37,430 nt of DNA from a virus. Location: positions 1 to 37,430 of the IMG/VR virus record IMGVR_UViG_3300008107_007087. The stretch is one strand, 5' to 3'. The notes under the pieces were generated by a model. It worked only from the letters and a program-made list of their open reading frames with translations. It was not told the DNA's origin and searched no databases. Positions 2,450 through 37,400 of the stretch are shown piece after piece; within the stretch, counting starts at the first letter, position 1; the number at the start of each line of letters is the position of its first letter. The translations under genes and the position numbers were made by a program.

Positions 2450-3478
2450 TTATTCAAAAAGTGCTGAAGCACATCCTCTACATATAGTATCATACGATTC
2501 TTGTACTTTTTGTTGATGTTCTTCACTACCCCAAAAATCTTTTAATTCTTGGGTTTTAAAATCACCAAATTGAACTTCCATATCATAATCATTACAACAT
2601 AAGAATACCTTACCGGCTGCATTTACATGAATCCAACCAACAGGCCTTCCGCCAACTTCCCTACCATTGCCACATCCAATTACTTTTTTAGTTTCATCAC
2701 CTTTTTGTAAATTTCTTTTTATTGCTTCTTTGTTAGTCATTATATGGTCCAATAATCCAGCTCTATCAATTAGTGACGGTACATCAAATACCTGTAAACC
2801 AGGAAATAATTCTCTAGCTTTATTTGTTTGAGTTGCAAGTTCTCCTGTTATCGGGTCTAAATCCATATCAATAGGGAATTCAGGTCCTTTATCTAACCAA
2901 CCACCTCTATCACTAAAAGAATTATGATTAGAACCGTTTACCTGTATTGAAAATGATTTATTTTTTACCATATGCGGCAACTTTTCCATAGCATATTTTA
3001 CGTTTGATATTAATTTATCAAATTGTTTTATATTGATACCACTTCGTAAACTCCAAACTTCAGGTTCAAAAGCTGGTATGTTTAGGCATATACCATTTAC
3101 TACATATGGGTATTTCACCAACAAATCAACTTTTTCCGGTGTTAAAGGAATTCCATTTGATAACACCATAAAACATAATCTATATTTTTGACAAATTTGT
3201 AATAATTGTTCAAAATGTGGATATAAAAGTATTTCGTTATAATGTGCGGTATAAAAACCACCAAAGTTTTTATGAACTAGACCATCTGGTTTTTCCCTTT
3301 CATCTATTAAATTTTTAATTATTTTTTCTAATAATTCAGGACTCATCACTTCTTTACCTGAAGTGGGATTTCCTTTGTACTTTACCGGACAAAACCAACA
3401 TCTTGCATTACATACCCCATATGGGTCCAACTGCATCTGATGAATTTTATAAGTTTGAAATTGTTCTTTTACTGTCAT
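2450..3478 (-). CDS. Radical SAM / SPASM domain protein
   Basis: A 342-residue protein. Cys23, Cys27 and Cys30 form the CxxxCxxC motif that binds the SAM-cleaving 4Fe-4S cluster (CNARCWFC). The C-terminal region has the SPASM-type set of Cys: GCGNG near residue 270, FLCCND near 293, and CRGC near 335, for auxiliary clusters. SPASM enzymes modify peptides or sugars by radical chemistry, and related genes occur in T4-like phages. It lies between two glycosyltransferases and the APS-kinase-like gene, 11 bases after the stop of the glycosyltransferase upstream, so a part in glycan or protein decoration is plausible but inferred. Confidence 0.85.
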   Translation of the reverse strand: MTVKEQFQTYKIHQMQLDPYGVCNARCWFCPVKYKGNPTSGKEVMSPELLEKIIKNLIDEREKPDGLVHKNFGGFYTAHYNEILLYPHFEQLLQICQKYRLCFMVLSNGIPLTPEKVDLLVKYPYVVNGICLNIPAFEPEVWSLRSGINIKQFDKLISNVKYAMEKLPHMVKNKSFSIQVNGSNHNSFSDRGGWLDKGPEFPIDMDLDPITGELATQTNKARELFPGLQVFDVPSLIDRAGLLDHIMTNKEAIKRNLQKGDETKKVIGCGNGREVGGRPVGWIHVNAAGKVFLCCNDYDMEVQFGDFKTQELKDFWGSEEHQQKVQESYDTICRGCASALFE

Positions 3479-3489
3479 ATATTTTGTTT

Positions 3490-4452
3490 TTATAAACCTT
3501 TATTTGCGAAATATTCATATAATAATAAAACTGGATTTTCATGTGTTTCATACCACAACTTTTCAACATGAATTCTATTAAATTTAGATTCAGTATTATG
3601 TGATTCATATAATTGGTGCGGTCTACAAGTTCTTAAAACCCCATCAACATCTTTAACTCCAATCCCACCAGTAAAATGATAAAAATTCACCTTACTATCA
3701 TCTTCATTATATAATCCAAATTTACCATCAGTAATTTTAATTATTTTTTTTGGACGTTTGTGAAACCACCACGTGTTCATCCATTCAAATTGAGGCAATA
3801 CATGTATATCTACCGAATATAACTGTATCAATAGATTTGTAATATATTGCTCTAAATGTGATATGGGGTTTTTCTTTGTATCAAAATCAGTTGTTAATAT
3901 TTCTATACTTTTCTCCAATAGAAACATATGTTTACTTTTATTAAATCCAATCAATCCAGCATTATAAGTTGGTGTAATTAAATCTTTAGTATAACCATCC
4001 GATAAATCTCCTATATACTTTCTTAATTCTGTTTGTATTCTTTTGTGTTCATCATTCCATTCATGCTTGTCAACATAAGAATAATGTAAAATATCAACTT
4101 CTTCTCTGGCAACAACCATTTTTCCACTTTCTAAAATATCAAATAAAAAATCCATATTAGATAAAAATATAGTATCAGCATCTAATAGTATTTCATAATC
4201 ATGCATATGATTCATTAATCCTATCCATTTAAACAAATATTTTCCTTTAAATTGTTGGAACGTATAACCTTCCATACTCACATCAATAACATCAACTACT
4301 TTCTCTATATGAGCTCTTTTATCAGCATCCAATTCACCGGCAACATATACTTTAATTGGAATTTTACTTTCATAATATTTCCAACTATTATATAACGCTA
4401 TGAAGTCATAATAGTATTTATTTTCAACAAATACACTATAAGATTTACTCAT
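3490..4452 (-). CDS. GT-A type glycosyltransferase
   Basis: A 320-residue protein with a nucleotide-sugar binding half and a DxD motif in LLDADTIFLSNMD (Asp91-Asp93), in the GT8-like style where the DxD follows a hydrophobic strand and is followed by a loop and helix. A YNAGLIGFNKS segment fits the acceptor-side loop of GT-A enzymes. An ATG 14 codons upstream exists, but I chose the ATG at 4452 because it overlaps the TGA of the upstream glycosyltransferase as ATGA and because residue 1 then directly precedes the first beta strand. Donor and acceptor are not predictable. No signal peptide or membrane segment, so cytoplasmic. Confidence 0.8.
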   Translation of the reverse strand: MSKSYSVFVENKYYYDFIALYNSWKYYESKIPIKVYVAGELDADKRAHIEKVVDVIDVSMEGYTFQQFKGKYLFKWIGLMNHMHDYEILLDADTIFLSNMDFLFDILESGKMVVAREEVDILHYSYVDKHEWNDEHKRIQTELRKYIGDLSDGYTKDLITPTYNAGLIGFNKSKHMFLLEKSIEILTTDFDTKKNPISHLEQYITNLLIQLYSVDIHVLPQFEWMNTWWFHKRPKKIIKITDGKFGLYNEDDSKVNFYHFTGGIGVKDVDGVLRTCRPHQLYESHNTESKFNRIHVEKLWYETHENPVLLLYEYFANKGL

Positions 4453-5393
4453 ATCAATACTGATTTTTTTCCAACTTTTTGAATCAATTCCCAATAGTGA
4501 TAAGAAGTTGTATTTTGTTTTATATCTAATTCCACACCGTACGGTAATGTATTCATAAACTCCGATTTGTAGAATAAACCAGAATTTGAATTTACCACTC
4601 CTGCATTGTGAAATATATTACACGTATCCCATAAATCTTCTGGTGATGTTCCCCAACTAAATTGTAAATTTTCATGACAAATGGTTTGGAATCCTAATTT
4701 CCAAGCATTCCATAAAACGGCCCACATATCAGCACACCATATTTGCAATTCATGATAAGATGGGTCTTTTTGTTTTTTAATATTATTTAATTCGGTTATA
4801 TTAACAAATAATTTTTCGGAATCTTCTTCAACTTTTTGCCAATAGTATTCATCTATTCCTTTCATTATATATTGTGCACCGATAGTATTTAGCTCATTAT
4901 CTTCAACAACTTTCTCATCTATATCCGCCAGTTTACACATAGCAGATAATATATCATCTCCTTTAGATTTTATATAAGAATGTGAAATATACCAACGGCA
5001 ATCTGAACCGTACCATATATCATCATTTATCATTTCAGAGGTTATCCATTCATTGATTGGCTTTGTAAACGCAATATCACAATCATGATAGAAAATAGTT
5101 TCTTGTTTTAATTCAGGCCTATTTAACCAATGTTGTTTTAATACATTTGGTCTTACTGATGAAATATAATTTTTATACATTCTAGTATCATCGTAAAAAA
5201 AGAATCTAACGTAATTATATTTTTCAGCAAGAGTAGTCCATTCTACTGGAATTATACCATTTTGTTTTATACCAATTACATCTATATTATTTGGATTGAT
5301 GCCCATTTCCATAAAGTTATGTATCATAACTTCTACTTGCCACGTATAGTAAGGAATACAGGGTTGCGCACAAACGAAACGTAAATTTTTCAT
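4449..5393 (-). CDS. Putative GT-A type glycosyltransferase
   Basis: A 314-residue protein opening with a beta strand (MKNLRFVCAQPCIPYYTWQVE) and carrying YHDCDIAFTKPI, in which Asp104-Cys-Asp106 stands where GT-A enzymes hold the metal-binding DxD. A later segment with conserved-looking aromatic residues (DPSYHELQIWCADMWAVLWN) could form the acceptor site. This protein type appears in phage genomes, and I am less sure of the family than for its partner. It is the first gene of the unit running on to the glycosyltransferase, radical SAM, APS-kinase-like and zinc-ribbon genes. The spacer before it holds an ATAATTATA element preceded by AAAAAACT. Confidence 0.65.
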   Translation of the reverse strand: MKNLRFVCAQPCIPYYTWQVEVMIHNFMEMGINPNNIDVIGIKQNGIIPVEWTTLAEKYNYVRFFFYDDTRMYKNYISSVRPNVLKQHWLNRPELKQETIFYHDCDIAFTKPINEWITSEMINDDIWYGSDCRWYISHSYIKSKGDDILSAMCKLADIDEKVVEDNELNTIGAQYIMKGIDEYYWQKVEEDSEKLFVNITELNNIKKQKDPSYHELQIWCADMWAVLWNAWKLGFQTICHENLQFSWGTSPEDLWDTCNIFHNAGVVNSNSGLFYKSEFMNTLPYGVELDIKQNTTSYHYWELIQKVGKKSVLI

Positions 5394-5408
5394 AACATTT
5401 TAATTAAA

Positions 5409-5417
5409 TATAATTAT
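5409..5417 (-). promoter_or_regulatory. Putative phage promoter element (ATAATTATA)
   Basis: On the minus strand AAAAAACT is followed directly by ATAATTATA, 16 bases before the ATG at 5393. The same AAAAACT plus ATAnTTATA arrangement occurs before the gene starting at 12011, and a two-base-longer version before the gene at 479. Promoter function is inferred from recurrence. Confidence 0.4.
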
Positions 5418-5432
5418 AGTTTTTTGCTTTTT

Positions 5433-6164
5433 TTAACAGAAATCACCAGTACCAGTTCCAACTTGTCCAGTTGACGAATTTAAATTAAATGTTTCACTAA
5501 TTATCATACCACCAAGTTCTTCTGCAACAAATGAATATCCCGTCAATAAGATATCTTGCGGCATTCTATATAAAATTGCTCCATCTGTCGCAGCATCTGC
5601 CAATGATATGTTATTTGCAGATGAACGTACTGAACGAATTGTTGTCAATGAACAAACACCACCGGATGAATTACTTAAAGTAACTGTGAATGTTATAGGT
5701 GCAGCAGTGGTTGTAGTTGTAGTGGTTGTTGGAGCAGCGGTAGTTGTAGTTGTTGTAGTAGTTGGTGCAGCAGTAGTTGTAGTTGTAGTTGGAGCAGAGG
5801 TTGTTGTTGTAGTTGTTGGTGCTGCAGTTGTTGTAGTTGTAGTTGTAGTTGGAGCAGCGGTTGTTGTTGTAGTTGTTGGTGCCGCGGTTGTAGTTGTTGT
5901 AGTTGTAGTGGTTGTAGTAGTTGTTGTAGTTGTAGTTGTAGTTGTTGGTATACCAGATATGCTTAATGTCAATGAATTAGTACATGCACCCACCGATGTT
6001 ATTGTGACTTGTGTAGCCGAATCAGAAACAGTAACACTTTTACCAGCCAATAGTTCTGCTTTAGTAGCAGTGGATGGAACTACTGAGCCTACATTTGCTG
6101 TAAGGTTAAAGTTTGGTCCTAAATCACCACCCATTCCACTATATAATGTTATCGTTGTTATCAT
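5433..6164 (-). CDS. Mucin-like virion or fibre protein with Thr/Ala/Pro linker
   Basis: A 243-residue protein in three parts. Residues 1-73 form an N-terminal beta-rich domain. Residues 74-156 are a linker of a 20-Thr run followed by Thr blocks of 6, 8, 6, 6, 8 and 8 residues, each closed by AAP (one SAP). Residues 157-243 form a C-terminal domain with Cys at its start and as the very last residue. That domain is a clear paralogue of the end of the next protein. The linker would be extended and is an ideal site for O-glycosylation, by analogy with mucins. No enzyme motif is present. It sits 9 bases after its paralogue and next to glycosyltransferases, with the fibre gene further upstream. 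Confidence 0.85.
   Translation of the reverse strand: MITTITLYSGMGGDLGPNFNLTANVGSVVPSTATKAELLAGKSVTVSDSATQVTITSVGACTNSLTLSISGIPTTTTTTTTTTTTTTTTTTTTAAPTTTTTTAAPTTTTTTTTAAPTTTTTTSAPTTTTTTAAPTTTTTTTTAAPTTTTTTTTAAPITFTVTLSNSSGGVCSLTTIRSVRSSANNISLADAATDGAILYRMPQDILLTGYSFVAEELGGMIISETFNLNSSTGQVGTGTGDFC
5436..5696 (-). repeat. C-terminal domain duplicated in the neighbouring gene (copy 1)
   Basis: Encodes the 87-residue C-terminal domain that is homologous to the domain encoded at 6177-6449. Shared features: T-(I/L)-R-x-V, NN, L-x-DAA-x-D, A-(I/V)-LYR-x-PQ, VAE, NSSTG-x-VG and a final Cys. Confidence 0.85.
5697..5945 (-). repeat. Thr/Ala/Pro-coding repeat tract (27- and 33-base units)
   Basis: Coding-strand ACA/ACT/ACC codons make a 20-Thr run followed by units of T6-(A/S)AP (27 bases) and T8-AAP (33 bases). 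The same units occur at 6450-6659. Confidence 0.9.
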
Positions 6165-6173
6165 ATTTCATTT

Positions 6174-7550
6174 TTAACATGCAAATCCTGTATCACTACC
6201 AACTGCTCCAGTTGATGAGTTTATTGTATAAGTATTTGATACTATATTTCCACCCAAAGTACCATCATATTCAGCAACATAATTAAATCCAATTAAAGGA
6301 GTTCCCTGTGGTGTTCTATATAATACAGCATTATCGGCTGCCGCATCATCTAAAGTTGTTGCATTGTTTGATGCGTAAACTAAACGTAGTGTGTTCATTG
6401 AACATGGGCTAGCTGGACTAGCACTTCCTACCGAAACATTAAATATGTTTGGTGCTACGGTAGTTGTTGTAGTTGTAGGTGCTGCAGTGGTTGTAGTTGT
6501 AGTGGTTGTTGGAGCAGCGGTAGTTGTAGTTGTAGTTGGTGCTGCAGTGGTTGTAGTTGTAGTTGTAGTTGGTGCTGCAGTGGTTGTAGTTGTAGTTGGA
6601 GCAGCGGTTGTAGTAGTTGTTGTAGTTGTGGTACTAGTAGTTGTAGTAGTTGTTGGTGTTCCATAAATTGCACTACCACCATTGAATCCACAAATAGGTG
6701 CGTTTGTTGGTAACGGTGCAGCAGTTGTTGTGCTTGGGGCAGCAGTTGTTGTACTTGTAGTTGTAGTTGTTGGTGTACAACTTATATAAGTAGTTAATTT
6801 ACCAGAGCCACCAGAAACTTCACCAAAATAACTACCATTACTATAAAATCCATTAGATACCAACGTAGTTAATGTATTATTGGTATATAAAACTACATCC
6901 TGTGCAAATGTTGCTCCATTTTTAGCATAATATGTAGATGTTCCAGCACTACACGCAGTAAATCCATTGGATGCGTGATATCCTAGTGCAAGTGACACTG
7001 GTCCGGAAGTTGTTGTTGTGGTTGTTGTTGTTGTAAATGTTACACAGGTAACGTTCATTGATTTCACAGCAAAGAGGCCATTACTATCTCTTAAAATTAC
7101 AAAATACTGATTATTTAATAACCCAGTAAATGTATAAGTTGTTGCTCCACTTAATGCAATTGGAGTTTTACTATAAGCTTCTCCAGGTGTATTTCCTATT
7201 TGTACACTTTGATAAGTACCACTACCACCACTAAAAGAAGAAATCTGTATTCTACCATATCCACCAGAACAACCTATGTCCGAAATTGTAAAATTAATCG
7301 GTGCAATAGTCGTGGTTGTAGTTGTTGTAATTGGATATAAAGTAGGATTACAATTTGCATCTAAACTACCAATCTCCTCTAGAGTAGAATCCAATGAACG
7401 AGATACCGTATTTTCTTGTGCAACAAATTCAAAGCTGTTGTTTAACTCATTCAATATTTGTCTAGGACCTCTGTATCCAGAACAGTCTGTCCATTCCACA
7501 AATGAATAAGTGTTGTCAGGTATTGTAATTCTGTAAACGTATGATGCCAT
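6174..7550 (-). CDS. Multi-domain mucin-like virion or fibre protein
   Basis: A 458-residue protein in which short beta-rich domains are joined by Thr runs. The first domain (residues 1-75) has no known match. The second, starting INFTISDIGCSG near residue 84 and ending SMNVTC, resembles the SprB repeat of Bacteroidota adhesins, with Cys at both ends. A third, starting VSLALGYHASNG, ends in ISC. A Thr/Ala/Pro linker (residues 298-367: blocks 9, 6, 8, 6, 8, 6) leads to a C-terminal domain paralogous to that of the neighbouring gene. No catalytic motif. Probably an elongated tail or capsid appendage that is exposed outside; Cys pairs at domain ends would suit disulfides. Confidence 0.8.
   Translation of the reverse strand: MASYVYRITIPDNTYSFVEWTDCSGYRGPRQILNELNNSFEFVAQENTVSRSLDSTLEEIGSLDANCNPTLYPITTTTTTTIAPINFTISDIGCSGGYGRIQISSFSGGSGTYQSVQIGNTPGEAYSKTPIALSGATTYTFTGLLNNQYFVILRDSNGLFAVKSMNVTCVTFTTTTTTTTTSGPVSLALGYHASNGFTACSAGTSTYYAKNGATFAQDVVLYTNNTLTTLVSNGFYSNGSYFGEVSGGSGKLTTYISCTPTTTTTSTTTAAPSTTTAAPLPTNAPICGFNGGSAIYGTPTTTTTTSTTTTTTTTTAAPTTTTTTAAPTTTTTTTTAAPTTTTTTAAPTTTTTTTTAAPTTTTTTVAPNIFNVSVGSASPASPCSMNTLRLVYASNNATTLDDAAADNAVLYRTPQGTPLIGFNYVAEYDGTLGGNIVSNTYTINSSTGAVGSDTGFAC
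6177..6449 (-). repeat. C-terminal domain duplicated in the neighbouring gene (copy 2)
   Basis: Encodes the 91-residue C-terminal domain paralogous to that at 5436-5696, with a four-residue insertion near the VAE motif. Both copies directly follow a Thr/Ala/Pro tract. Confidence 0.85.
6450..6659 (-). repeat. Thr/Ala/Pro-coding repeat tract
   Basis: Encodes Thr blocks of 9, 6, 8, 6, 8 and 6 residues (after TP-T6-S), separated by AAP and ending in VAP. After the first run, block lengths are only 6 or 8, as in the tract at 5697-5945. Confidence 0.9.
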
Positions 7551-7574
7551 TACTTATTGGATTTCTTCAATACC

Positions 7575-7583
7575 TATAAGTAT
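7575..7583 (-). promoter_or_regulatory. Putative phage promoter element (ATACTTATA)
   Basis: The spacer before the mucin-like gene holds ATATACTTATA on the minus strand, 25 bases upstream of the ATG at 7550. The element lies in the loop of a weak inverted repeat (TTCAATA at 7566-7572 and TATTGAA at 7585-7591). Confidence 0.4.
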
Positions 7584-7596
7584 ATATTGAAATCAA

Positions 7597-10362
7597 TTAT
7601 GCTCCGAATTTATTAATGAACCACGCATAGCTCTTATTTCCAGATGAAGAACCACTAACTGCTAAAGTATTAGATGGAGTTACACCGAATGTTACAAAAT
7701 CGGATGAACCACCTAAATAGTTTGTAGTTGGTGCGTTATTTCCATCAAAATAAAATCTAACAATATAAGTTGCGGAGTTGGTTGCTGTTCCAGTACTTGT
7801 ATTAATTGATGCCAATAATAGTAATGTAGCTCCAGCAGTTCCCATATTAATTGGTAATCCTGTATCACCACCTTCGTTTCCAGCTGCTACAAATAAAGAA
7901 CCTTGTGATGCACCTGCATTTACACTACCATCACCAACAACACTAAATTTAGTATTAGAACCAAGTGATGTATCGGTAGTACTTGTACCTATTTGAGTTT
8001 TACCACCAACATTAAACGTTCCACTTGCAGTTACATTACCAGCATTTGATACGTTTAATAGATTAGTTCCGCTATAATTTGTTACTCTGAAATTTGAATT
8101 GTTTGTACTAAAAACAGTATCAATAGAACCGCCACCAGGAATTGTAGCTCTTGGAGTATTTGTTCTATCTCTAACAACAAAAATAGTATTATCACCCGAT
8201 GTTGGACTTTGTCTACCAACGTAAACGTATTTGTTTGGAGAATCTACAAAAAAGTCACCTTTTGTTGCACCCGTACTACTTTCAATAACTTCAAAACTAT
8301 GGGACACTAATAAACTACCGGTAAATTCATGTCTATCATCGGATGTATTACCAAACTTTGTTGAACCACTTTGAAATAATACAGATGATGTTGTATAAGT
8401 TGTATGTAATTCTTGTGTTGTTATTTTACCAGTAAAATAAACATCGTTATTACCATCAATTGTAAATGCGTTCTTTAATGATGCTGTATATCCTTGTAAA
8501 GGTCCTATTTGAGTTAATTCAGTAATTTGAGATGAACTACTTACTACACCATTTGTTGCCAATAATGAACCGGTTAAAGATGGAACTTCTATATTATTCG
8601 TAACATAAAAAGAACCAGTTACCTCTGCTCCAGTTAAACTTACTCTGAACTTTCTTAACCAAGTACTTCCATTAAATTCAGCAACATTGAAACCACTAAA
8701 TCCACCATTTCTACTATCAAATACAAATTCAGCAGAACCTCTTTGGTTTGTTGATGAGTAGCTATTACCAAAGATTTGATAATAAGGTCCATAAATTGAA
8801 CCACCATCAAAGAAACCAAACAACATTGCGTTTGTAGTTCCAGCGTTATATAGTAATGGAGATGCACCACTCAAATTTAAATTACCAGTAATTGTTTGAT
8901 TACCATAGAAAGTATTTGCAGATGATGTTTGTGCAAATGTAAAATAATCTTTTATTTGCTGTGAACTGCTTACAATTCCAGAAGTTTTTAAAGATTGAGT
9001 ATATGATTGAATACCCGTTATATCTAATTTAGCCGAAGATGTAAACACATTTAATGATGATGTGTAAGCTACAATTTGTCCAATTTCAGTTTTAACTGAT
9101 GCGGTATAGGCTAATGTTTGAGAAATAGTTTCTTTAACAGAAGCAGTATAAGCTTGAATATTTGCTACTTCATTTTTAACGCTTTGAGTGTATGCGTTTA
9201 ATGAAGATGTATAGGCTAATGTTTGAGAAATAGTTTCTTTAACAGAAGCAGTATAAGCTTGAATATTTGCTACTTCATTTTTAACCGAAGCTGTATAAGC
9301 TAGTGTTTGTGAAATAGTTTCTTTAACAGAAGCAGTATATGCTTGAATATTTGCTACTTCATTTTTAACACTTGCAGTATATGCTTGAATATTTGCTACT
9401 TCATTTTTAACACTTGCAGTGTATGCTAATGTTTGTGAAATAGTTTCTTTTACAGATGCAGTATATGCTAATGTTTGTGAAATTTCTTCTTTAACACTTG
9501 CAGTATAAGCTTGAATATTTGCCACATCAATTTTTCCAGATGCAGTAAATGTGTTGAGTGATGCCGTATATGACACCAATTGTCCAACTTCAACTTTTAC
9601 CGAAGCGGTGTATGCTTGTATATTTGCAACCGTATCACTTATTGATTGAGAATGTTGGTTGAAAGATGCAGTTACTATTGATACTCCCAAATTAACTCCT
9701 AACTGAGAAGAAGAAAAACTATTGAAAGATGCGGTAACTATTGATGTACCAAGATTCACCCCTAATTGAGATGAAGAAAAACTATTGAAAGATGCGGTAA
9801 CTATTGATGTACCAAGATTCACCCCTAATTGAGATGAAGAAAAACTATTGAAAGATGCGGTAACTATTGAATTTCCTAAATTTACACCCAATTGTGATGA
9901 AGAAAAACTATTAAAAGATGCGGTTACGATTGATGTACCAAGATTTACTCCTAATTGAGAAGATGTAAATTGATTTAATGTTGCAATATTAACCGAATCA
10001 CCATTTACAATCAATGAACCGGTCATATTTACAGATCCAGTAAATTCATGCTTATCGGATGATTGGTCACCAAATTTATTTGAACCAGAAGAAAATACAA
10101 CCGAAGATGTTTGATATATAGTTTCAATATCGTTTACAGTCAATTTTCCGGTAATAGTAACACTACCGTTTACAATTTGATTTCCTGTAAATGTGTTCGC
10201 AGAACCAGTTTTTGCAGCAAATTCAGTTATTTTATCACGTAAAGTTTTAATTGTGATTTGCGCGGTTGTACTAGCCGAAACCATAGCTACTACATCATTA
10301 TCTGATAATTTATATATATTATCAACTACTATGGGAAGTTCGGATATTTTCTTATTTGCCAT
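7597..10362 (-). CDS. Long tail-fibre-like protein with heptad repeats
   Basis: A 921-residue protein. It begins MANKKISELP, an opening common in phage tail and fibre proteins. Residues 130-234 are five 21-residue repeats of the form NSFSSSQLGVNLGxSIVTASF, and the next roughly 210 residues are 14- or 21-residue repeats (VANIQAYTASVKNE and ISQTLAYTASVKET types), all multiples of seven, as expected for a trimeric coiled-coil shaft. A domain near residues 73-120 (SSGSNKFGDQSSDKHEFTGS) is repeated further on as QSGSTKFGNTSDDRHEFTGS. The C-terminal third is beta-rich with many Ser, Thr and Gly, probably the tip. No chaperone or enzyme motif is visible. The upstream spacer has the putative late element. 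Confidence 0.85.
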   Translation of the reverse strand: MANKKISELPIVVDNIYKLSDNDVVAMVSASTTAQITIKTLRDKITEFAAKTGSANTFTGNQIVNGSVTITGKLTVNDIETIYQTSSVVFSSGSNKFGDQSSDKHEFTGSVNMTGSLIVNGDSVNIATLNQFTSSQLGVNLGTSIVTASFNSFSSSQLGVNLGNSIVTASFNSFSSSQLGVNLGTSIVTASFNSFSSSQLGVNLGTSIVTASFNSFSSSQLGVNLGVSIVTASFNQHSQSISDTVANIQAYTASVKVEVGQLVSYTASLNTFTASGKIDVANIQAYTASVKEEISQTLAYTASVKETISQTLAYTASVKNEVANIQAYTASVKNEVANIQAYTASVKETISQTLAYTASVKNEVANIQAYTASVKETISQTLAYTSSLNAYTQSVKNEVANIQAYTASVKETISQTLAYTASVKTEIGQIVAYTSSLNVFTSSAKLDITGIQSYTQSLKTSGIVSSSQQIKDYFTFAQTSSANTFYGNQTITGNLNLSGASPLLYNAGTTNAMLFGFFDGGSIYGPYYQIFGNSYSSTNQRGSAEFVFDSRNGGFSGFNVAEFNGSTWLRKFRVSLTGAEVTGSFYVTNNIEVPSLTGSLLATNGVVSSSSQITELTQIGPLQGYTASLKNAFTIDGNNDVYFTGKITTQELHTTYTTSSVLFQSGSTKFGNTSDDRHEFTGSLLVSHSFEVIESSTGATKGDFFVDSPNKYVYVGRQSPTSGDNTIFVVRDRTNTPRATIPGGGSIDTVFSTNNSNFRVTNYSGTNLLNVSNAGNVTASGTFNVGGKTQIGTSTTDTSLGSNTKFSVVGDGSVNAGASQGSLFVAAGNEGGDTGLPINMGTAGATLLLLASINTSTGTATNSATYIVRFYFDGNNAPTTNYLGGSSDFVTFGVTPSNTLAVSGSSSGNKSYAWFINKFGA
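8990..9630 (-). repeat. 14/21-residue heptad repeats in fibre shaft
   Basis: About fourteen units ending in (A/S)YT(A/S)S(V/L)K or a close variant, mostly 42 bases long with three or so extended by one heptad to 63 bases. Alternation of VANIQ and ISQTL types gives near-identical DNA stretches. Confidence 0.85.
9661..9975 (-). repeat. Five tandem 63-base repeats in fibre gene
   Basis: Five consecutive 63-base units encode 21-residue repeats with core SQLGVNLGxSIVTASF, residues 130-234 of the fibre protein. The middle copies are almost identical at the DNA level, a sign of recent amplification or gene conversion. Confidence 0.95.
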
Positions 10363-10428: not shown

Positions 10429-10695
10429 CTATTCCCTAAAGGATTTTCTCTTTTTGGTGGACAGTGCGGATGGTGGAAGTACTCCAGATGCTATTTTATC
10501 TAATATAACTTCTCTCTGACTTTTACGAATTGCTTTTTGTTTTTCCTCTCTTTTTTCGGTAGTTGGTTTAGTGTACTCCTTTCGGTTTCTCAATTCTAAA
10601 ATATGTCCCGATTTTATTACCTTTCTTTTGAATTCTTTAAGAGCTTTATTGATGTCCTGCTTTGTACAGTCAACTATAACGATTGCTACTCCCAT
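10429..10695 (-). CDS. rpsU: Ribosomal protein bS21 homologue
   Basis: An 88-residue basic protein that matches bacterial ribosomal protein bS21: INKALKEFKRKVIKSGHILE, then LRNRKEYTKPTTEKREEKQKA, corresponds to the family core ALRRFKR....G.....R.R..Y.KPT..R. It is longer than cellular bS21 (about 65-70 aa) by a C-terminal tail of some 25 residues, including a VLPPSAL turn and a basic end. Phage-encoded bS21 is known from other phages and may replace the host copy in the small ribosomal subunit near the anti-Shine-Dalgarno region. No Shine-Dalgarno motif precedes its ATG. It starts 3 bases after the stop of the HAD phosphatase gene, so it is cotranscribed with it. Confidence 0.88.
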   Translation of the reverse strand: MGVAIVIVDCTKQDINKALKEFKRKVIKSGHILELRNRKEYTKPTTEKREEKQKAIRKSQREVILDKIASGVLPPSALSTKKRKSFRE

Positions 10696-10698
10696 ATA

Positions 10699-11232
10699 TT
10701 ATGAATGTTTTATGTGTTGTATCTTTTGTTTTACGTTTGGATATGCTTTAAGCCTTTTTCTAACCGCTTCTACATTTTTAAGCGAATCATCTACAAAGAA
10801 AACATCATCATACCCCTCATCTTTTACCTTTGCTTCTATCCAATCTGCTTTCTTTTCAGGATTTGCATCACCCAATGCAACTACCATTACGTTTCTAATA
10901 CCCAAATCTTTAATAAAATCATATACAGGTCTATATGCAGAACGTGCAGTTAGGATATATATCGTTCTACTACTATCGGATGCCGCCATTCTTTTCAATA
11001 ATTCAAAATATCCTTTAATTAATTTTGGGTCCGATACTTTTTGAAAATCGGTATAATCAAATACATCACCCGGTCTTTCTTTGTAAACTGCATATTCACC
11101 AGGAGTTAGTTTTGATTCTTTTCCGTCTTTATGTTTTACATATATAAAAGAAGTTGTTTTGACAAGTGTATCGTCAAAATCAAATATTCTTAATTTTTTA
11201 CTTTCTAAAAATAATGTTCTTGATATTGGCAT
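10699..11232 (-). CDS. HAD-superfamily phosphatase
   Basis: A 177-residue protein. DFDDTL near residue 18 is HAD motif I (nucleophile and acid/base Asp), ILTAR near residue 93 is motif II, a Lys sits in the following helix, and FFVDDSLKN near residue 146 is motif III/IV. The size and the ILTAR motif resemble phage 5'-nucleotidase-type or polynucleotide kinase 3'-phosphatase-type HAD proteins, but no kinase P-loop is present, so it is a stand-alone phosphatase. The substrate is unknown. It overlaps the coiled-coil membrane gene by one base (TAATG) and precedes the bS21 gene. Confidence 0.82.
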   Translation of the reverse strand: MPISRTLFLESKKLRIFDFDDTLVKTTSFIYVKHKDGKESKLTPGEYAVYKERPGDVFDYTDFQKVSDPKLIKGYFELLKRMAASDSSRTIYILTARSAYRPVYDFIKDLGIRNVMVVALGDANPEKKADWIEAKVKDEGYDDVFFVDDSLKNVEAVRKRLKAYPNVKQKIQHIKHS

Positions 11233-29971: not shown

Positions 29972-30421
29972 TTAAAGTTTGAGTTTTAACTTGGTAATTA
30001 ACTTGGGTTCTGTACCATATGCTTCGGCAATTCTTTTGATTTCCTCTCTACCGGTGGTACTTTCATATAATATATCAAGATATTCAGATGCTTCTTTTGT
30101 AGAAACTTCATACCATTTAGCTACCAAATCAATAATCCATTGTTCGTAATCTTTTACCGATTTACCCTTCATATAACGAAGATAGGTTTTACCTTTTGGT
30201 ATAATTCCAATAAGCGCTTTGTAAACAGCTTTAGGTGGTGCTTCTTGGATATAAGGTTGTATTTCCGCTATCATCTCAATCCAATCTGGATTCATAGACA
30301 TATAACGAATGATTAACCAATTACTCCAGGTCTTTTTATCCGCATCCTCTAGCTTATCCCAATACTTTGGGTCCTGGTCTTTTGTAATTGCGTTGATATG
30401 GTCAAATAATCCTTTAGCCAT
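29972..30421 (-). CDS. Clamp-loader small subunit, gp62-like
   Basis: A 149-residue protein that aligns with T4 gp62 in its second half: IPKGKTYLRYMK matches the T4 segment VPRGKRYGKWAK, and LVAKWYEVSTKEASEYLDIL matches LLAKRYQVNTNDAINYKSIL. The helical N-terminal part (residues 1-60, with KDQDPKYWDKLEDADKKTWS) is poorly conserved, and the whole is shorter than T4 gp62 (187 aa). It would complete the gp44/gp62 clamp loader together with the ATPase gene two positions upstream. It overlaps the zinc-ribbon gene by 8 bases. Confidence 0.75.
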   Translation of the reverse strand: MAKGLFDHINAITKDQDPKYWDKLEDADKKTWSNWLIIRYMSMNPDWIEMIAEIQPYIQEAPPKAVYKALIGIIPKGKTYLRYMKGKSVKDYEQWIIDLVAKWYEVSTKEASEYLDILYESTTGREEIKRIAEAYGTEPKLITKLKLKL

Positions 30422-30731
30422 TTGTAATATCTAAATCTAATGAGCGAGTTTCCGCTGCGGTTAATTTATCTTTTTGTTCTAATGCTCTAAGTTGTACCGG
30501 TTTAAAAAGTTCTTGTTCTGCACCACAATCACCACAAAGATATACTTCAAAAGGTATCATCATATCCTGGTCACCACCAAAAGCTAATTTAGATAATTTT
30601 CTCATCTTCATAGCTGGAAGAAATGTTTTACCACCACATTCACAAAATACAGGTACCGATGCCGATATATCTACTTTAGGTTGTGCTCCCGGCATTTGTG
30701 GAACTTCACCTTGTCCAATAATGTTTGCCAT
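30414..30731 (-). CDS. Zinc-ribbon protein between clamp-loader genes
   Basis: A 105-residue protein with FCECGGKTF near residue 29 and LCGDCGAE near residue 65, four Cys in the classical zinc-ribbon spacing separated by a 34-residue beta region. The first 25 residues look disordered (Gly/Pro-rich). It sits between gp44 (its ATG lies 1 base after the gp44 stop) and gp62 (overlap of 8 bases), which points to a role in replication or in late transcription linked to the clamp loader. The family is not recognised by name. Confidence 0.75.
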   Translation of the reverse strand: MANIIGQGEVPQMPGAQPKVDISASVPVFCECGGKTFLPAMKMRKLSKLAFGGDQDMMIPFEVYLCGDCGAEQELFKPVQLRALEQKDKLTAAETRSLDLDITNG

Positions 30732-30732
30732 A

Positions 30733-31674
30733 TTATATTAAATTTAAAATTTGAATTAATGTTGCAGCTGCAATAATTTCTTTATCAATTGCTACTGCCG
30801 ATTTAGCTACTCCATCTCCTAATACAAGAATAACGTTTGCTGTATTTTCTCCTGCATATTCATCAACCTTATCATATAGTAATGTATAAAGGTCAGAAAA
30901 ATCAGTTGCCTTTGAATCTAAAATAGCTTGTCTAACATTCATATATTTGTTTCTCTTATCATCTTTTGATTTAAGAATTTCCAAAACTTTCATTTTGTAA
31001 TCATTCTCCAAAAGATTTTGAACATCTACTTGCAATTTACCTTTAAGAGAGTTTAATTGGCAAGTATTAATAATTTTACGAATATCAGGATAAGAAGAAT
31101 CAATAATAGGAACTAAATCTTTTGGGTCAAACTGAACATCTTCTGCTCTTAAAATCTTACTCATCTGAATAGCTACATCTTTTTTAGTAGGTGGAGTTAT
31201 TTGAAAAGTTTGACAACGGCTTTGAATAGGTTCGATGATTTTTTCAACATAGTTACAAGTCAAAATGAATCGGCAATGCTTACTAAATGTTTCCATTAAG
31301 TTACGAAGGATTGCTTGTGCGTTTGGAGTCATATAATCAAACTCATCCAATATAATAATTTTATATTTTTTAAATCCCATTGATGATGCAAAGTTTTTAA
31401 CTTTTGTTCTTACAGTCTCAACATTATTCTCATCGGATGCATTTAGTATCATATAATCACAATCAATTGATTTGATAATCAATTTTGCCAATGTTGTTTT
31501 ACCAGTACCGGCTTTTCCAAAGAACAAAAGATGTGGTACATCTTCGGTTTCTATATAACCTGCTACTTTATTTTTTAAATGTTCATTACCCACATAATCA
31601 TCCAATTTAGATGGACGATATTTTTCCACCCATAATGAATGGTTTATTTGTTCTTCTTCTTTAAATTCAAACAT
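30733..31674 (-). CDS. Clamp-loader ATPase, gp44-like
   Basis: A 313-residue AAA+ protein: EKYRPSKLDDYVGNEHLKNK at the start, Walker A FGKAGTGKTTLAKL (residues 52-65), Walker B ILDEFDYM (Asp110-Asp113), and the sensor/arginine-finger SRC at residues 152-154. This is the RFC-type clamp-loader layout; the T4 gp44 length is about 319. It loads the gp45-like sliding clamp in complex with gp62. It lies 11 bases after the dUTPase stop and 1 base before the zinc-ribbon gene. Confidence 0.95.
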   Translation of the reverse strand: MFEFKEEEQINHSLWVEKYRPSKLDDYVGNEHLKNKVAGYIETEDVPHLLFFGKAGTGKTTLAKLIIKSIDCDYMILNASDENNVETVRTKVKNFASSMGFKKYKIIILDEFDYMTPNAQAILRNLMETFSKHCRFILTCNYVEKIIEPIQSRCQTFQITPPTKKDVAIQMSKILRAEDVQFDPKDLVPIIDSSYPDIRKIINTCQLNSLKGKLQVDVQNLLENDYKMKVLEILKSKDDKRNKYMNVRQAILDSKATDFSDLYTLLYDKVDEYAGENTANVILVLGDGVAKSAVAIDKEIIAAATLIQILNLI

Positions 31675-31685
31675 ATTATTATTTT

Positions 31686-32144
31686 TTAATTTCCGGTTGA
31701 CCCAAATCCGCCTTCACCTCTTTCGGTGTTAGATAATTCTTCTACTTCTTGAAACTCAATATGAGGATGTGGGATAATCATAATTTGTGCAATACGCTCA
31801 CCAATCTTATAAAATTCATTATTTAAATTTTTAGATTCATCATAAAACCCTTCACTTTTACCAAGTATTTTATTGAATGTAGCTTGTAGTTCACCCCTAT
31901 ATCCACTATCAATTACACCAACTGAATTACTTAATTGTAAACCAGTCTTTCTAATTGATGAACGAGGAAATACCAATCCAACAAATCCTTCAGGTATTTC
32001 TAATGCGATGCCAGTTCCATATGTAATTTGTTCCGGTGTATCTTTAAGAATTTCGGTTGCTACTAAATCCATTCCTGCATCGCCTTCTTTTGCATATGTT
32101 GGAATTACTGCGTTTGGATTAAGCTTTTTTATTTTCACTTGCAT
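31686..32144 (-). CDS. dut: dUTPase
   Basis: A 152-residue protein with all five trimeric dUTPase motifs: AKEGDAGMDL (motif 1), PRSSIRKTGLQ (motif 2), GVIDSGYRGEL (motif 3), RIAQIMIIP (motif 4), and RGEGGFGSTG (motif 5). It hydrolyses dUTP to dUMP, keeping uracil out of DNA and supplying dUMP for dTTP. The gene overlaps the upstream small gene by 26 bases, a longer overlap than most here, but only one ATG is available before motif 1. Confidence 0.96.
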   Translation of the reverse strand: MQVKIKKLNPNAVIPTYAKEGDAGMDLVATEILKDTPEQITYGTGIALEIPEGFVGLVFPRSSIRKTGLQLSNSVGVIDSGYRGELQATFNKILGKSEGFYDESKNLNNEFYKIGERIAQIMIIPHPHIEFQEVEELSNTERGEGGFGSTGN

Positions 32145-32517
32145 ATTCGTCTATTTTTTGTTCAAAGTTATTTCTATCTTGCTCCAATTGTTTAGCAAAT
32201 TTAATTTGTTCTTCTCTCATTTTTTTACCATCTTCACTTATTTCTCTTGCGAACAAAGTAAACACTTTTCCTGTCTTTGAATTTGTAAAATTAATAAATG
32301 AATCTTTTTTATTAGTAATTGTAAAAGTAACAGTTGGGTCTTCCGATGGATTTAAATTTCCATCTGTCCATGCAAAAATTTGAGGTTCATCATTATCAAA
32401 TTGGAAACACCATTCACAGTCTTCATATTTTTCTTGTTCCAAAGTGATTTGACCAATTTGTTCTAATGGTTCTAAATTAACCACTTCTTCTTTTTTTGTT
32501 TTTTTAGCCTTTGCCAT
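32119..32517 (-). CDS. Hypothetical protein between DNA polymerase and dUTPase
   Basis: A 132-residue protein. Residues 1-20 are Lys-rich, then comes an acidic beta-rich part (CEWCFQFDNDEPQIFAWTDG), and the C-terminal 40 residues form a charged helix. A role next to the replication machinery is suggested only by context. It has its own host-type promoter (32537-32567) whose -33 box lies inside the hairpin at the end of the polymerase gene. I do not recognise the family. Confidence 0.7.
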   Translation of the reverse strand: MAKAKKTKKEEVVNLEPLEQIGQITLEQEKYEDCEWCFQFDNDEPQIFAWTDGNLNPSEDPTVTFTITNKKDSFINFTNSKTGKVFTLFAREISEDGKKMREEQIKFAKQLEQDRNNFEQKIDEYASENKKA

Positions 32518-32536
32518 ATTATTTTATTTTGTTTTA

Positions 32537-32567
32537 CAAATATACGAAAAAAAGTTTAGAATTCAAA
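32537..32567 (-). promoter_or_regulatory. Bacteroidota-type promoter (TTTG-N19-TATATTTG)
   Basis: On the minus strand TTTG at 32567-32564 and TATATTTG at 32544-32537 are 19 bases apart, within the consensus spacing. The -33 box lies inside the last codons of the DNA polymerase gene, so the downstream genes can be made independently of it. Confidence 0.75.
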
Positions 32568-32577
32568 AAACTTTTTT
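32548..32577 (-). terminator. Possible weak hairpin at the end of the polymerase gene
   Basis: AAAAAAGTTT at 32548-32557 and AAACTTTTTT at 32568-32577 can pair as a 10-bp stem with a 10-base loop. It overlaps the polymerase stop and the promoter -33 box, so it may be a terminator, an RNA stabiliser or chance in an A/T-rich spacer. Confidence 0.35.
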
Positions 32578-35108
32578 GCGGTTTGTGATTCTACCGATGC
32601 CATTTCCCATTTGAGAGCACCGAAAAAATCATTTAATTTATTTTCTAGTTCTGCTTTATAAATTTCATCTCTATCTATGTAGTTGTTGATAAAATCTAAT
32701 ATATCTTTTGGGTCATTATAATCTTTGAATGCCAACGTATCAATACCTAATGGATTGTTTTTAAGATAAACCCATTTAACTTTTTCACCATCTCTAATTG
32801 GTTCATGTTTATACGGACATTCAAAGAATTTTAGTAAACGATTATATGCAATTCCCGCTTTAACGTGTGCGGGCGTTCCTTTCTCAAAATTTGCAATAGC
32901 TTCACCACCATTCTTTTTCCAACGGCCTTTATCGTATTTACTCAATTCTTTAATTGCTCCACCTTTTGCTATTTTGTTGATTGGAAGCGTTGATAATCCT
33001 TTTTTAAATTCTAATAGTGATTGATTAACTTCTTCATTTGTTTTACCCATCAGAATATCCTTTAACAATCTAGCCATATACTCTTGAAATGCCTTTGGAA
33101 ATGAACTTCTAACTACATCCAATCCTTTAACATCCAATTTATCACAAGGAATACCATTTTTCAAAATCATCCATTGAGCGTATCTTTTCTTTGCTACCCA
33201 AAATCCCGCTTTACTGATATACTCTTTCTTAATCTCAAATCTATGTTTCTCTTTTGGAATACAAAAGAATCTTTCTGCTAATAAGTTATAAAATGAATTT
33301 AAGAATGCTTGAGTTTCTTCTGCAATAGTATTAACTTCCGATGCCATTCTATTCTGGTCAAATGTTTTATATTCAGGATATCTATGTTTTACCAAAGGTT
33401 CTGCCATCATATAAATTGAATCGGTATCAATATAAACATTGTAATCATCCTTTGTACCCAATTCTTTTTGGTATTTAAGGTTTGCCATTTCTGCAGTTTT
33501 CTTAATTACAGTTTGACCCGTAATAGTTACTGCTTCTGCATTATCAATATCATAAAATCTAAATGCAACAAGTCCTAATACACCATACATTGAGTTCAAA
33601 AGAATCTTTTGTACCAACTGTCTTTTACCATAGAATTCATACTTTTCAGTATCCCCTGCTTCACCATACTTCTTCTCTAATTTTCTGAATTCAACCCTTT
33701 GTTTAAACCAAGTATCCAAAATATCCGCAATCAATCCTGGCTTCTTTTGTGTGTATAATACACCATTTGCAGCCACACCTAATTGGTTATCTTTAATAAC
33801 TTCTTCTAACTCTTTTCTATTATAAGTAAATTCCTTTGTTTTACCAACAATTGTATATTGTCTATCTTCTCCTCTAACCCATGCATCAGGATCCCAATTA
33901 CCAATTTTACCTACCTTAGTTTCAGGTGAAATGTTAAGGGTCATAATGATTGATGGATATAGAGATGTTAAGTCCAAGTCATAAATCCAATCATACTTAC
34001 CAACGATGGGTTCTTTTACATATGCTCCAATGAACTTATCTTCACCCGCTTCAGTTTGTTCTGCAAGTTTATCTTTATGGTTCTTTGGTTTGTTAGGTGC
34101 TACCAATCCTTTCTTTTTAAGATATGCTAAACAAGCTCCTTCTAAATATTTTGATGAGAAAATGTAATCTTCATATGGAGTAAACCCAGAATGACAAATC
34201 GCTCTGGACAACTCAATGAATTGAAGTTTAGTATCCATTGAAACTACTAATTCCACATCGGTAATGTTATATTCAATAAACTTTTCTAAATCATTTTCAA
34301 ATAGGTCATCCAAACTTCCTTCGTATTCAACCTTACCTCTACCCAATTCTTTGGTTGCAATATGATTCAATGTATAAGATGCTTCTAAACCAAAGTTATA
34401 TCGTTTATACAAACCAATATAGTCCATAATACTTACACCCGCAATACTATAACGATTACGATATGGTGACCAGTACGTTTTACCTATACAAGATAAACGA
34501 TTAGCCTGATTTTCTCCGCATACATTTTTAATACGATTATATAGATATGGAACGTCAAAGAAATCAATATTCCATCCTGTCCAAATAGTTGCGTTTACAC
34601 TCTCAACATAAGTTACATATTTCATCAACAATTCACGTTCACTACTAAAGATATGAACGTGCACATCTCTACCATCTTTTTGAAATGATTTACCTTTTAC
34701 TTTACCTTTCTTATCTACAACGAATACGTGGTATTCTTTTGTAGCATCATCATATGCTGCTATTGAAGTAATTTCGTTTTCTGCTTTTTCAATGTTTGGA
34801 AGTCCAGTCACCATTTCAACCTCAATATCAAAAGTTAAAACAATGTGCCCTTTAGATGGAGTATCATCATTATATAAATCAACTAATACTCTTGTTGTTT
34901 CAGGTACATCTGATTCAAAGAGTTCTTCACCATCATCTTTATCCCATTTGTAAATCTTTGTAAGACGGTCTCCGTACATTGATGTATATTCCCCATTTGG
35001 GTCTTTAACATACGCATATTTTTTATATGAAAATGTACGATAACCTAAAGTATCATCCCAAAGATGTATTAAATTCCTCTGTCTCTCTAAAAATATATTC
35101 TGATACAT
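32556..35108 (-). CDS. Family B DNA polymerase, gp43-like
   Basis: An 850-residue replicative polymerase. The proofreading exonuclease shows DIEVE (Asp94, Glu96), a GWNIDFFDVPY Exo II motif near 178-188, and YNITDVEL (Asp284). The polymerase motifs are DLTSLYPSI at 379-387 (A), KILLNSMYG at 501-509 (B) and YIDTDSIY around 559-566 (C). The order and length (T4 gp43 is 898) fit T4-like phage polymerases. Its partners are the sliding clamp and the clamp loader in the same cluster. It lies one base after the methyltransferase stop. Confidence 0.97.
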   Translation of the reverse strand: MYQNIFLERQRNLIHLWDDTLGYRTFSYKKYAYVKDPNGEYTSMYGDRLTKIYKWDKDDGEELFESDVPETTRVLVDLYNDDTPSKGHIVLTFDIEVEMVTGLPNIEKAENEITSIAAYDDATKEYHVFVVDKKGKVKGKSFQKDGRDVHVHIFSSERELLMKYVTYVESVNATIWTGWNIDFFDVPYLYNRIKNVCGENQANRLSCIGKTYWSPYRNRYSIAGVSIMDYIGLYKRYNFGLEASYTLNHIATKELGRGKVEYEGSLDDLFENDLEKFIEYNITDVELVVSMDTKLQFIELSRAICHSGFTPYEDYIFSSKYLEGACLAYLKKKGLVAPNKPKNHKDKLAEQTEAGEDKFIGAYVKEPIVGKYDWIYDLDLTSLYPSIIMTLNISPETKVGKIGNWDPDAWVRGEDRQYTIVGKTKEFTYNRKELEEVIKDNQLGVAANGVLYTQKKPGLIADILDTWFKQRVEFRKLEKKYGEAGDTEKYEFYGKRQLVQKILLNSMYGVLGLVAFRFYDIDNAEAVTITGQTVIKKTAEMANLKYQKELGTKDDYNVYIDTDSIYMMAEPLVKHRYPEYKTFDQNRMASEVNTIAEETQAFLNSFYNLLAERFFCIPKEKHRFEIKKEYISKAGFWVAKKRYAQWMILKNGIPCDKLDVKGLDVVRSSFPKAFQEYMARLLKDILMGKTNEEVNQSLLEFKKGLSTLPINKIAKGGAIKELSKYDKGRWKKNGGEAIANFEKGTPAHVKAGIAYNRLLKFFECPYKHEPIRDGEKVKWVYLKNNPLGIDTLAFKDYNDPKDILDFINNYIDRDEIYKAELENKLNDFFGALKWEMASVESQTAKKFFEF

Positions 35109-35109
35109 T

Positions 35110-36681
35110 CTATGGTTTATAAAATATAAAAATTGGTTCGTATTTGTAAAACTGTCCTTCTATTTGCATACTATTTTTTGCTTTAGATAAATCCATTCCG
35201 GTCATAGGGCTCATAGTCATTCTCAATTTACCTTTATACTCACAACCCAATTGTGTTAGGATGTCAATACTATCCTGTTCTAGTGGATAAAATTTGTCTG
35301 GTCCAACTTTAATATCTGCGATATTCCAACACACATAACGGTCATTACGAAGATACTCATATATAGTTTCTAATGTTGGTCTTAAAAATCCATCTCTCCA
35401 ACTTTCATAGTTTCCAAATTTCTTAAATGATTGAGTATCATCATCTGAATATCTTTCTCTATCAAAGTATGGTGGTGAAGTAAATGCGAAATCTAATTTA
35501 CCTTTATATTTTTGAAATCTCGGGTCATCTTTAATTATTTCCGAACCCGTTGTAAAGATTTCATAAGTGTTTGCATGTCCCCAAAATGGATTACTTGCAC
35601 CAGGTACTTTATTGTTGAAGAATTCCGCTAAATACTCATAACGAGTCTTACCGATTTCTGCAATATAGTTTTCGGTATTAGGGTCATTTCCTATATAATG
35701 AATATTTCTATCATCTACACTTAATGCTCCTAATATTCTACCACCCCAACCAGCTGATGGGTCATAAATGTTAATAACATCCTGGTCTTTGATGTGTTGG
35801 GTAAATCTCTGATAAAGATATTTTGCAGTTAGTGGTGGGAAGTTCACAACCGCCTGTGTACCCATACCGATACGAAATGCCGCAGTTGCTTCAGGAAATA
35901 TTCTTTGTCCCAATGGATATATCTTAATCTGAATTGGTTGTTTTGGAACATCAACTAAATTATCAATATTCTCACCCCAATCTGCAGTTTTTAATGAAGA
36001 TATGTTTTCATACTTCAATATACCCGCTGCATAAAGGTCTTTTACTTCTTGTGCAGTAATTGGTGGTGATGGAACTTTACTATCTGCTTGAGATAGGCAA
36101 AATCCATATCCCTCTTTCTTATCACCAGCTACCCACTTCTCAATCCACTCCTTACCACTTTGGATATGTGAGTTATGAAAATCTGGATGGTCTAAATGCA
36201 ATGTTTTAGAGAAACGATACATACCATCTTGCCTAGTCAATCTTCTCATTTGTTTTACAAACTCTGGTAAATACTGGTCATCTGCGAATACATCATAGAT
36301 AGATGGTTTTGGTTTATCATATGCCGAACCACCAATACCTGTTTTATACATCGCAGGAAAGAATTGATTGACCGGAGTTGCGAACTTATTAAAATTAAAG
36401 ATGACTTCGTTTCCGTCATCATCTTTTTCTTCAAACTCATTTACTTTGTAAGTTTGTAGTTTAGAAAACTGCTCAATCATTTCTGATTCATCTACACCAA
36501 TTCTAGGTGGTGCACCAGTTTCATTCCAAACTCTTACCGCAAGTTCTCTGAAAAATGCCACCCACTTTTCAAAATCAGCGAATGGCATTTTGAGAACTTC
36601 TTCGTATAATAAGTTTACTTCTGGTTCGTACAACCAGTCATTCTTTTCGTAGAAATATTTCTTTTTATAATTAAAACTCAT
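35110..36681 (-). CDS. DNA methyltransferase, SPPY-type (N4-cytosine or N6-adenine)
   Basis: A 523-residue protein. The C-terminal half has the SAM-binding motif IYDPSAGWGGR (residues 305-315) and the catalytic TSPPYFD (401-407), the order seen in beta-class amino-methyltransferases. SPPY favours N4-cytosine but N6-adenine is possible. The 300 N-terminal residues have no motif that I recognise and may be a DNA-binding or recognition domain. No restriction nuclease is linked, so it is likely a solitary phage methylase, for example to protect against host restriction. It overlaps the clamp gene by one base. Confidence 0.85.
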   Translation of the reverse strand: MSFNYKKKYFYEKNDWLYEPEVNLLYEEVLKMPFADFEKWVAFFRELAVRVWNETGAPPRIGVDESEMIEQFSKLQTYKVNEFEEKDDDGNEVIFNFNKFATPVNQFFPAMYKTGIGGSAYDKPKPSIYDVFADDQYLPEFVKQMRRLTRQDGMYRFSKTLHLDHPDFHNSHIQSGKEWIEKWVAGDKKEGYGFCLSQADSKVPSPPITAQEVKDLYAAGILKYENISSLKTADWGENIDNLVDVPKQPIQIKIYPLGQRIFPEATAAFRIGMGTQAVVNFPPLTAKYLYQRFTQHIKDQDVINIYDPSAGWGGRILGALSVDDRNIHYIGNDPNTENYIAEIGKTRYEYLAEFFNNKVPGASNPFWGHANTYEIFTTGSEIIKDDPRFQKYKGKLDFAFTSPPYFDRERYSDDDTQSFKKFGNYESWRDGFLRPTLETIYEYLRNDRYVCWNIADIKVGPDKFYPLEQDSIDILTQLGCEYKGKLRMTMSPMTGMDLSKAKNSMQIEGQFYKYEPIFIFYKP

Positions 36682-37400
36682 TATGCAGTTAATTGTTGTT
36701 CTACTAAGTAATATTTTGCAGTGAAATCATCAATTTTGAATTCAACATGCGAAATACCCTGTGTTGATACTTTAAGCACAACCGAAGTTGCTTCTTTATT
36801 TGCAGTTAAGATTTCTTTCAAATATTTTGCTGAGAAAGAAATTGGTTTAACATCTCCTGCATATGCTTTATCAACTACGAACACAACTCTGTTTGAGTTA
36901 ATATTTGAATATCCCAATACAACTTTTAATTCTTTCTTTTCAGTAAGAATGGTGAACGTATCAACTTCACTCAATGCGTTTTTAGCTTTGATAAACTTAT
37001 CAATAAACGCACCATCAAAATTAATATCCACATCAAAATCAGGAAGTTTTTTCAAATCTGGTACATTTGGAATAACTGCCAAATCTGCCAATTGAAACTG
37101 AACTTTTGTGTTTTCGCTTTTAACGAAAAGATTTACTGCTTTACCTTCAATCTCTTGTGCTTCTAACTCAATATCTTCACCAACTACTGAAAGTAATTTT
37201 GATAAAGTTGATGTTGTGTACACTCCTAAATCAGGTGCACTAAATGTGAAATTATCTAATTGAATCTCACCCAATACAGTTTTGTCATCTGAAATAAAAC
37301 GAGTAACTAATTTGTTATCTTCGGTTTTCCATGCAACTGATTCTACTAATCCACCCAAACTATACTTTTGGATAAATCTTGTTAATTTTGCTTTGTTCAT
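36681..37400 (-). CDS. Sliding clamp, gp45-like
   Basis: A 239-residue protein that fits the T4 gp45 sliding clamp in length (228) and layout. APDLGVYTTSTLSKLLSVVG near residues 55-74 matches the family segment with LGVY followed by the interdomain helix; the second half repeats the strand pattern (DFDVDINFDGAFIDKFIKA, then VVLGYSN). It forms a ring around DNA and holds the polymerase, and in T4 also supports late transcription. The bases upstream of its ATG are A-rich, without a Shine-Dalgarno motif. Confidence 0.9.
   Translation of the reverse strand: MNKAKLTRFIQKYSLGGLVESVAWKTEDNKLVTRFISDDKTVLGEIQLDNFTFSAPDLGVYTTSTLSKLLSVVGEDIELEAQEIEGKAVNLFVKSENTKVQFQLADLAVIPNVPDLKKLPDFDVDINFDGAFIDKFIKAKNALSEVDTFTILTEKKELKVVLGYSNINSNRVVFVVDKAYAGDVKPISFSAKYLKEILTANKEATSVVLKVSTQGISHVEFKIDDFTAKYYLVEQQLTA

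Follow-up and report, generated by a model that had tools for sequence, protein, structure and literature searches.

We have analysed a virus record of 37 kb (37,430 nucleotides in full, hereafter the window), which may be a fragment according to its classification. On its minus strand, positions 10429..10695 hold an ORF that starts with ATG at 10695, ends with the stop codon at 10429-10431 and encodes a protein of 88 aa (MGVAIVIVDCTKQDINKALKEFKRKVIKSGHILELRNRKEYTKPTTEKREEKQKAIRKSQREVILDKIASGVLPPSALSTKKRKSFRE). The protein matches Pfam Ribosomal_S21 (PF01165) over residues 11-58 with 44 bits, against a curated cut-off of 27 (E 1.7e-11), and PHROG 21469, 'ribosomal protein S21', with E 3.1e-10. 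Judged from its sequence, this is a real bS21 with a longer C-terminus, which confirms the original prediction on this point. The conserved core, residues 1-57 (10525..10695, minus strand), shows a dN/dS of ~0.03 among relatives, a rough value since the synonymous sites are near saturation, and such a low ratio over codons 1-57 indicates a selected gene rather than a chance ORF. An AlphaFold2 model based on a 14-sequence alignment predicts helices at residues 15-29, 31-37 and 44-69 with a mean pLDDT of 77. In the structure comparison, 15 of the 16 matches listed for this model are ribosomal structures, with low Z values of 2.7-4.1. Among deposited phages, only distant matches to this bS21 were found.

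The window belongs to a large phage, T4-like on sequence grounds. It contains a T4-like replication block (29972..37400, minus strand) with clamp loader subunits, PolB, a methylase-like protein and a sliding-clamp-like protein, and its genes also include a dUTPase, a PD-(D/E)XK nuclease and many glycosyl-transfer and surface genes, while neither an Rfam match nor a tRNA was found in it. Among annotated phages, Microcystis phage Mel-JY01 has the nearest polymerase (47.5%). Directly upstream of bS21, after a gap of 3 nt, lies a HAD/polynucleotide-kinase-phosphatase-like gene (10699..11232, minus strand; PHROG 415), which adjoins bS21 here and in each of the four relatives with a contig that was read; co-expression and an RNA-repair link are possible. 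The block beside bS21 at 2450-10362, which includes a radical SAM/SPASM protein and unassigned proteins, is largely missing or different in relatives; Thr-rich simple-repeat proteins are found at 5433-7550 and a repetitive fibre-like protein at 7597-10362. Further away, a phage-encoded subtilase (21056-22645; Peptidase_S8, E 9.5e-33) is also found in the relatives G001 and G003, with no match in G005 and G006, and a probable tail fibre of 950 aa with long collagen-like GTSGSSG repeats is encoded at 22652-25504.

The close relatives of the phage bS21 in IMG/VR are located on six contigs of 31 to 274 kb, with 83-87% identity over the best segment, and the gene order around bS21 is kept in relatives over most of the window. 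In G003, a contig of 274 kb, bS21 lies at 120 kb, ~25 kb from the polymerase gene. The genes for the tail sheath (at 183 kb), MCP (at 230 kb), portal (at 239 kb) and terminase (at 241 kb) are all more than 60 kb away from it, on the same strand. G003 and G005 have 26-27 tRNA calls each, with all 20 amino acids covered; the 26 genes of G003 are clustered at L019:5230-12009 (about 85-92 kb), and G005 has a similar set (L032, L033). The tmRNA call in G003 looks doubtful.

At the site of Flavobacterium johnsoniae Tyr54, the sampled Bacteroidota host bS21s carry either Tyr (25 distinct) or Arg (48 distinct), and we refer to them as Tyr-type and Arg-type. The Tyr-type proteins are 62-66 aa long with a median of 64, which the phage protein exceeds by ~24 residues, so the ~25 extra C-terminal residues predicted originally are borne out; E. 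coli bS21 has 71 aa (PDB chain length). The C-terminal tail, residues 58-88 (10432..10524, minus strand), consists of the helix end, a short turn and a basic disordered end. The long C-terminal helix is predicted over residues 44-69 (10489..10566, minus strand) with pLDDT 80-89 over most of it, and the basic end is of low confidence in the AlphaFold2 model. The tail is common to 5 of the 6 close relatives (L003 is identical to L004, and L005 to L006), and its dN/dS is ~0.15-0.19 where computable, again a rough value, so that it appears to be under weak purifying selection. It is not required throughout the clade, as the bS21 of L007 has a short, divergent C-terminal end and only 73 aa in total. 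Among 46 distinct Bacteroidota-type phage bS21s, every protein longer than 70 aa lacks an aromatic residue at the Tyr54 site.

From the conserved KP motif to F. johnsoniae Tyr54, the phage protein aligns without gaps, and in three alignments the residue facing Tyr54 is Arg57 (codon 10525..10527, minus strand). Arg57 is present in the window and in 6/6 relatives, and no aromatic residue occurs at this position. In F. johnsoniae, Tyr54 of bS21 stacks on A1534 and helps to sequester the anti-Shine-Dalgarno sequence (ASD), and the Y54A mutation raises translation from strong Shine-Dalgarno (SD) sequences (PMC9976891). Chen et al. 2022 have reported an aromatic residue here in 61/61 phage bS21s (PMC9723584); as aligned, the Arg57 clade departs from the aromatic-only pattern of that 61-sequence survey. 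A second group of phages (L204, L206-L208 and others), part of a set in which His-type members also occur, has Arg as well, and so does L219; the change is therefore recurrent. In the tree, the phage-Arg label changes four times, and at least three of these changes are forced by well-supported branches. By eye, the bS21 genes of L204, L213 and L219 lie among ORFs resembling prohead protease or scaffold genes.

All of the host genomes examined (148/148) contain bS21. For the genes near bS21, SDs are found at 3.5% in 17 Tyr-type genomes versus 3.7% in shuffled leaders, that is, without excess, while in 23 Arg-type genomes the proportion is 13.6% versus 6.5%, with several of these genomes SD-less when taken singly. 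Across Bacteroidota genomes, Tyr or Arg at the Tyr54 site thus tracks the absence or presence of SD enrichment nearby, with exceptions. In addition, at similar GC the A excess over background at -13..-11 amounts to 0.24 in Tyr-type and to 0.05 in Arg-type hosts; an A-rich stretch is known as a positive determinant in F. johnsoniae (PMC6847099). In the window and its relatives up to 274 kb, SDs in phage leaders are at chance level compared with shuffled leaders, and the genes with a strong SD show no excess either, so the earlier claim that the phage genes lack SDs holds. The A excess is 0.24 in three phage contigs (G001, G003, G005) and 0.19 in the window. Since their leaders are SD-less and A-rich, the phage genes seem suited to a Bacteroidia ribosome of the Tyr type, though the phage's own bS21 has Arg. 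With the Tyr-type host HMM the bS21 core reaches 58 bits, and with the Arg-type one 42 bits. Overall, the host is probably a member of Bacteroidota, as had been predicted; the leader signature and the bS21 core support this indirectly. Neither the 2-epimerase, which matches hosts of either type at 34-42%, nor the HAD/NTP-transferase, with few matches, was informative for host assignment. The count of Bacteroidota promoters (TAnnTTTG with TTG) was not decisive, as Mel-JY01 shows a raised count as well as the larger relatives.

The leader of the phage bS21 gene itself (10696..10720, minus strand) has no SD, with a dG of +1.8 for pairing with the 16S tail, and those of the relatives range from +1.6 to +1.9. 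A dG of -10 or lower is reached by 53/73 distinct host rpsU leaders but by 0/46 distinct Bacteroidota-type phage bS21 leaders, of which only that of L197 reaches -7 (at -8.2). The Fisher p value for this contrast is 1.8e-17, a test that overstates independence as the phage sequences are related. In line with the host figure, previous work has described rpsU as carrying a strong SD in many Bacteroidota, though not in Bacteroidales, and has revealed that F. johnsoniae rpsU is autoregulated by ribosomes lacking bS21 and that bS21-deltaC ribosomes of this species are weaker in SD-less initiation (PMC9976891). Given the proportions of 0/46 and 53/73, the phage copies probably escape the SD-dependent autoregulation of the host, though the escape would depend on the host order since Bacteroidales rpsU is without an SD anyway. 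In the open-access papers searched, we have found no earlier report of this phage-versus-host contrast. As a separate observation, a Saprospiraceae MAG (G011) has a pair of bS21 genes on a single contig, at C184:21901-22062 and at 66045-66197; the second one (in L014) is without an SD and may be phage-derived.

The explanation that we prefer, which we put a little short of an even chance, is that the phage bS21 acts as a feedback-free replacement or supplement of the host protein and keeps ribosomes competent for SD-less initiation during infection. It builds on the homology, the selection on the core, Arg57, the SD-less leaders and the phage bS21 genes without an SD; the ribosome binding, the competition, the escape from autoregulation and the roles of Arg57 and the tail are what we infer. 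The phage protein would bind the 30S platform instead of, or besides, the host bS21. Its SD-less mRNA should be translatable by normal, bS21-replete ribosomes, and the gene would stand outside the host circuit in which ribosomes lacking bS21 favour the strong-SD rpsU mRNA. With such a supply, ribosomes could stay competent for the SD-less, A-rich-leader initiation of phage genes. The longer C-terminal helix and the basic end would probably add platform or rRNA contacts and aid competition, and may also offset the missing Tyr54-A1534 stacking. By analogy, replacement of the host bS21 is plausible, as entry into E. coli ribosomes has been published for a different phage bS21 (PMC6375957, as cited in PMC9723584). 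The set of 26 tRNA genes in G003 fits a phage supply of translation parts.

On the other hand, the original prediction was that the phage copy could replace the host protein and bias initiation toward phage mRNAs, an idea that has been proposed in print (Chen 2022, PMC9723584; Al-Shayeb 2020, PMC7162821) and accords with the changed mRNA choice upon bS21 loss or mutation in F. johnsoniae (PMC9976891). We regard such a specialised ribosome as unlikely here. The comparison of phage and host leaders yields no SD- or A-based discriminator: the phage leaders share the SD-less, A-rich pattern of Tyr-type hosts (A excess 0.19-0.24 versus 0.24), and strong SDs in them are few, at or below the shuffled level. 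As the leaders are alike in both respects, mRNA selection by either feature is unsupported; moreover, the aromatic residue kept in Chen's phages is absent in the window clade. That absence could also act by itself, since Arg57 would not stack on A1534, and a freer ASD might make ribosomes sensitive to SDs, with misregulation of rpsU and other host genes. The SD activity gained by Y54A ribosomes in F. johnsoniae (PMC9976891), the overall SD enrichment in Arg-type but not Tyr-type hosts and the recurrence of Arg beside His-type phage relatives are in favour of this. However, the phage's own genes lack SDs, the SD-less Arg-type hosts imply that Arg is insufficient, and compensation may come from the tail and from further residues of the pocket, so that we consider such unlocking improbable.

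A host that is itself an Arg-type member of Bacteroidota, for example from Chlorobia or another non-Bacteroidia class, would offer a different reason for Arg57, namely that the phage has copied the bS21 type of its host. All 48/48 Arg-type host proteins have Arg at this site, Chlorobia are described as lacking Tyr54 (PMC9976891), and in the core tree a grouping of the window clade with Arg-type hosts is not rejected by the AU test (p 0.53), the tree being compatible with a Tyr-type as well as an Arg-type origin. Against it, the core scores higher with the Tyr-type HMM, the leaders fit Tyr-type rather than Arg-type hosts of similar GC, and the core tree places a Tyr-type phage nearest to the window clade; we consider this mimicry very unlikely. 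A broader reading of the recurrent Tyr-to-Arg change and the SD-less phage gene would be that phages free or reposition the ASD in hosts that lock it and at the same time evade the SD-based bS21 feedback, in a phage-host contest over the bS21 circuit, and this we hold to be a doubtful possibility.

With regard to novelty, the presence of bS21 in Bacteroidota phages and the idea of a replacement that favours phage mRNAs are already published (PMC9723584, PMC7162821). Arg57, the SD-less phage bS21 genes and the likeness of phage leaders to those of Tyr-type hosts go beyond published work; Arg57 at the Tyr54 site and the lack of the extended SD that host rpsU typically has also go beyond the original prediction. 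In Bacteroidota ribosomes, the ASD is intact but hidden, and bS21, a small protein with control over start-site choice, is both part of the lock and autoregulated through it. Phage bS21s that have neither the lock tyrosine nor an SD on the gene are naturally occurring variants in which the two functions come apart, and the reason why phages carry bS21 becomes testable with F. johnsoniae rpsU strains and reporters. Whether Arg57 frees the ASD or the longer helix compensates is testable as well.

Among known systems, the phage resembles the freshwater huge Bacteroidetes phages of Chen et al. 2022 (PMC9723584) in its divergent bS21 C-terminus, a GC of about 31-34%, many tRNAs and a Bacteroidetes-like setting. 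Those phages, however, have an aromatic residue instead of Arg at the Tyr54 position, and their bS21 gene lies on the opposite strand inside the structural (terminase/capsid) block, while here it is on the same strand and distant (G003). The bS21 of F. johnsoniae and other Bacteroidia hosts (rpsU, PMC9976891) belongs to the same family, and the phage core scores better with the Tyr-type host HMM than with the Arg-type one, but it differs from the phage protein in having neither Arg57 nor the ~24 more residues, and its gene in having the extended SD. A basic extension has been proposed to aid ribosome binding for the huge-phage bS21s of Al-Shayeb et al. 2020 (PMC7162821), where it is N-terminal rather than C-terminal as in the window phage. 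Finally, the bS21 of Pelagibacter phage HTVC008M (Mizuno et al. 2019, PMC6375957), from a different host phylum, is likewise phage-encoded and, according to the citing work, is the one that enters E. coli ribosomes.
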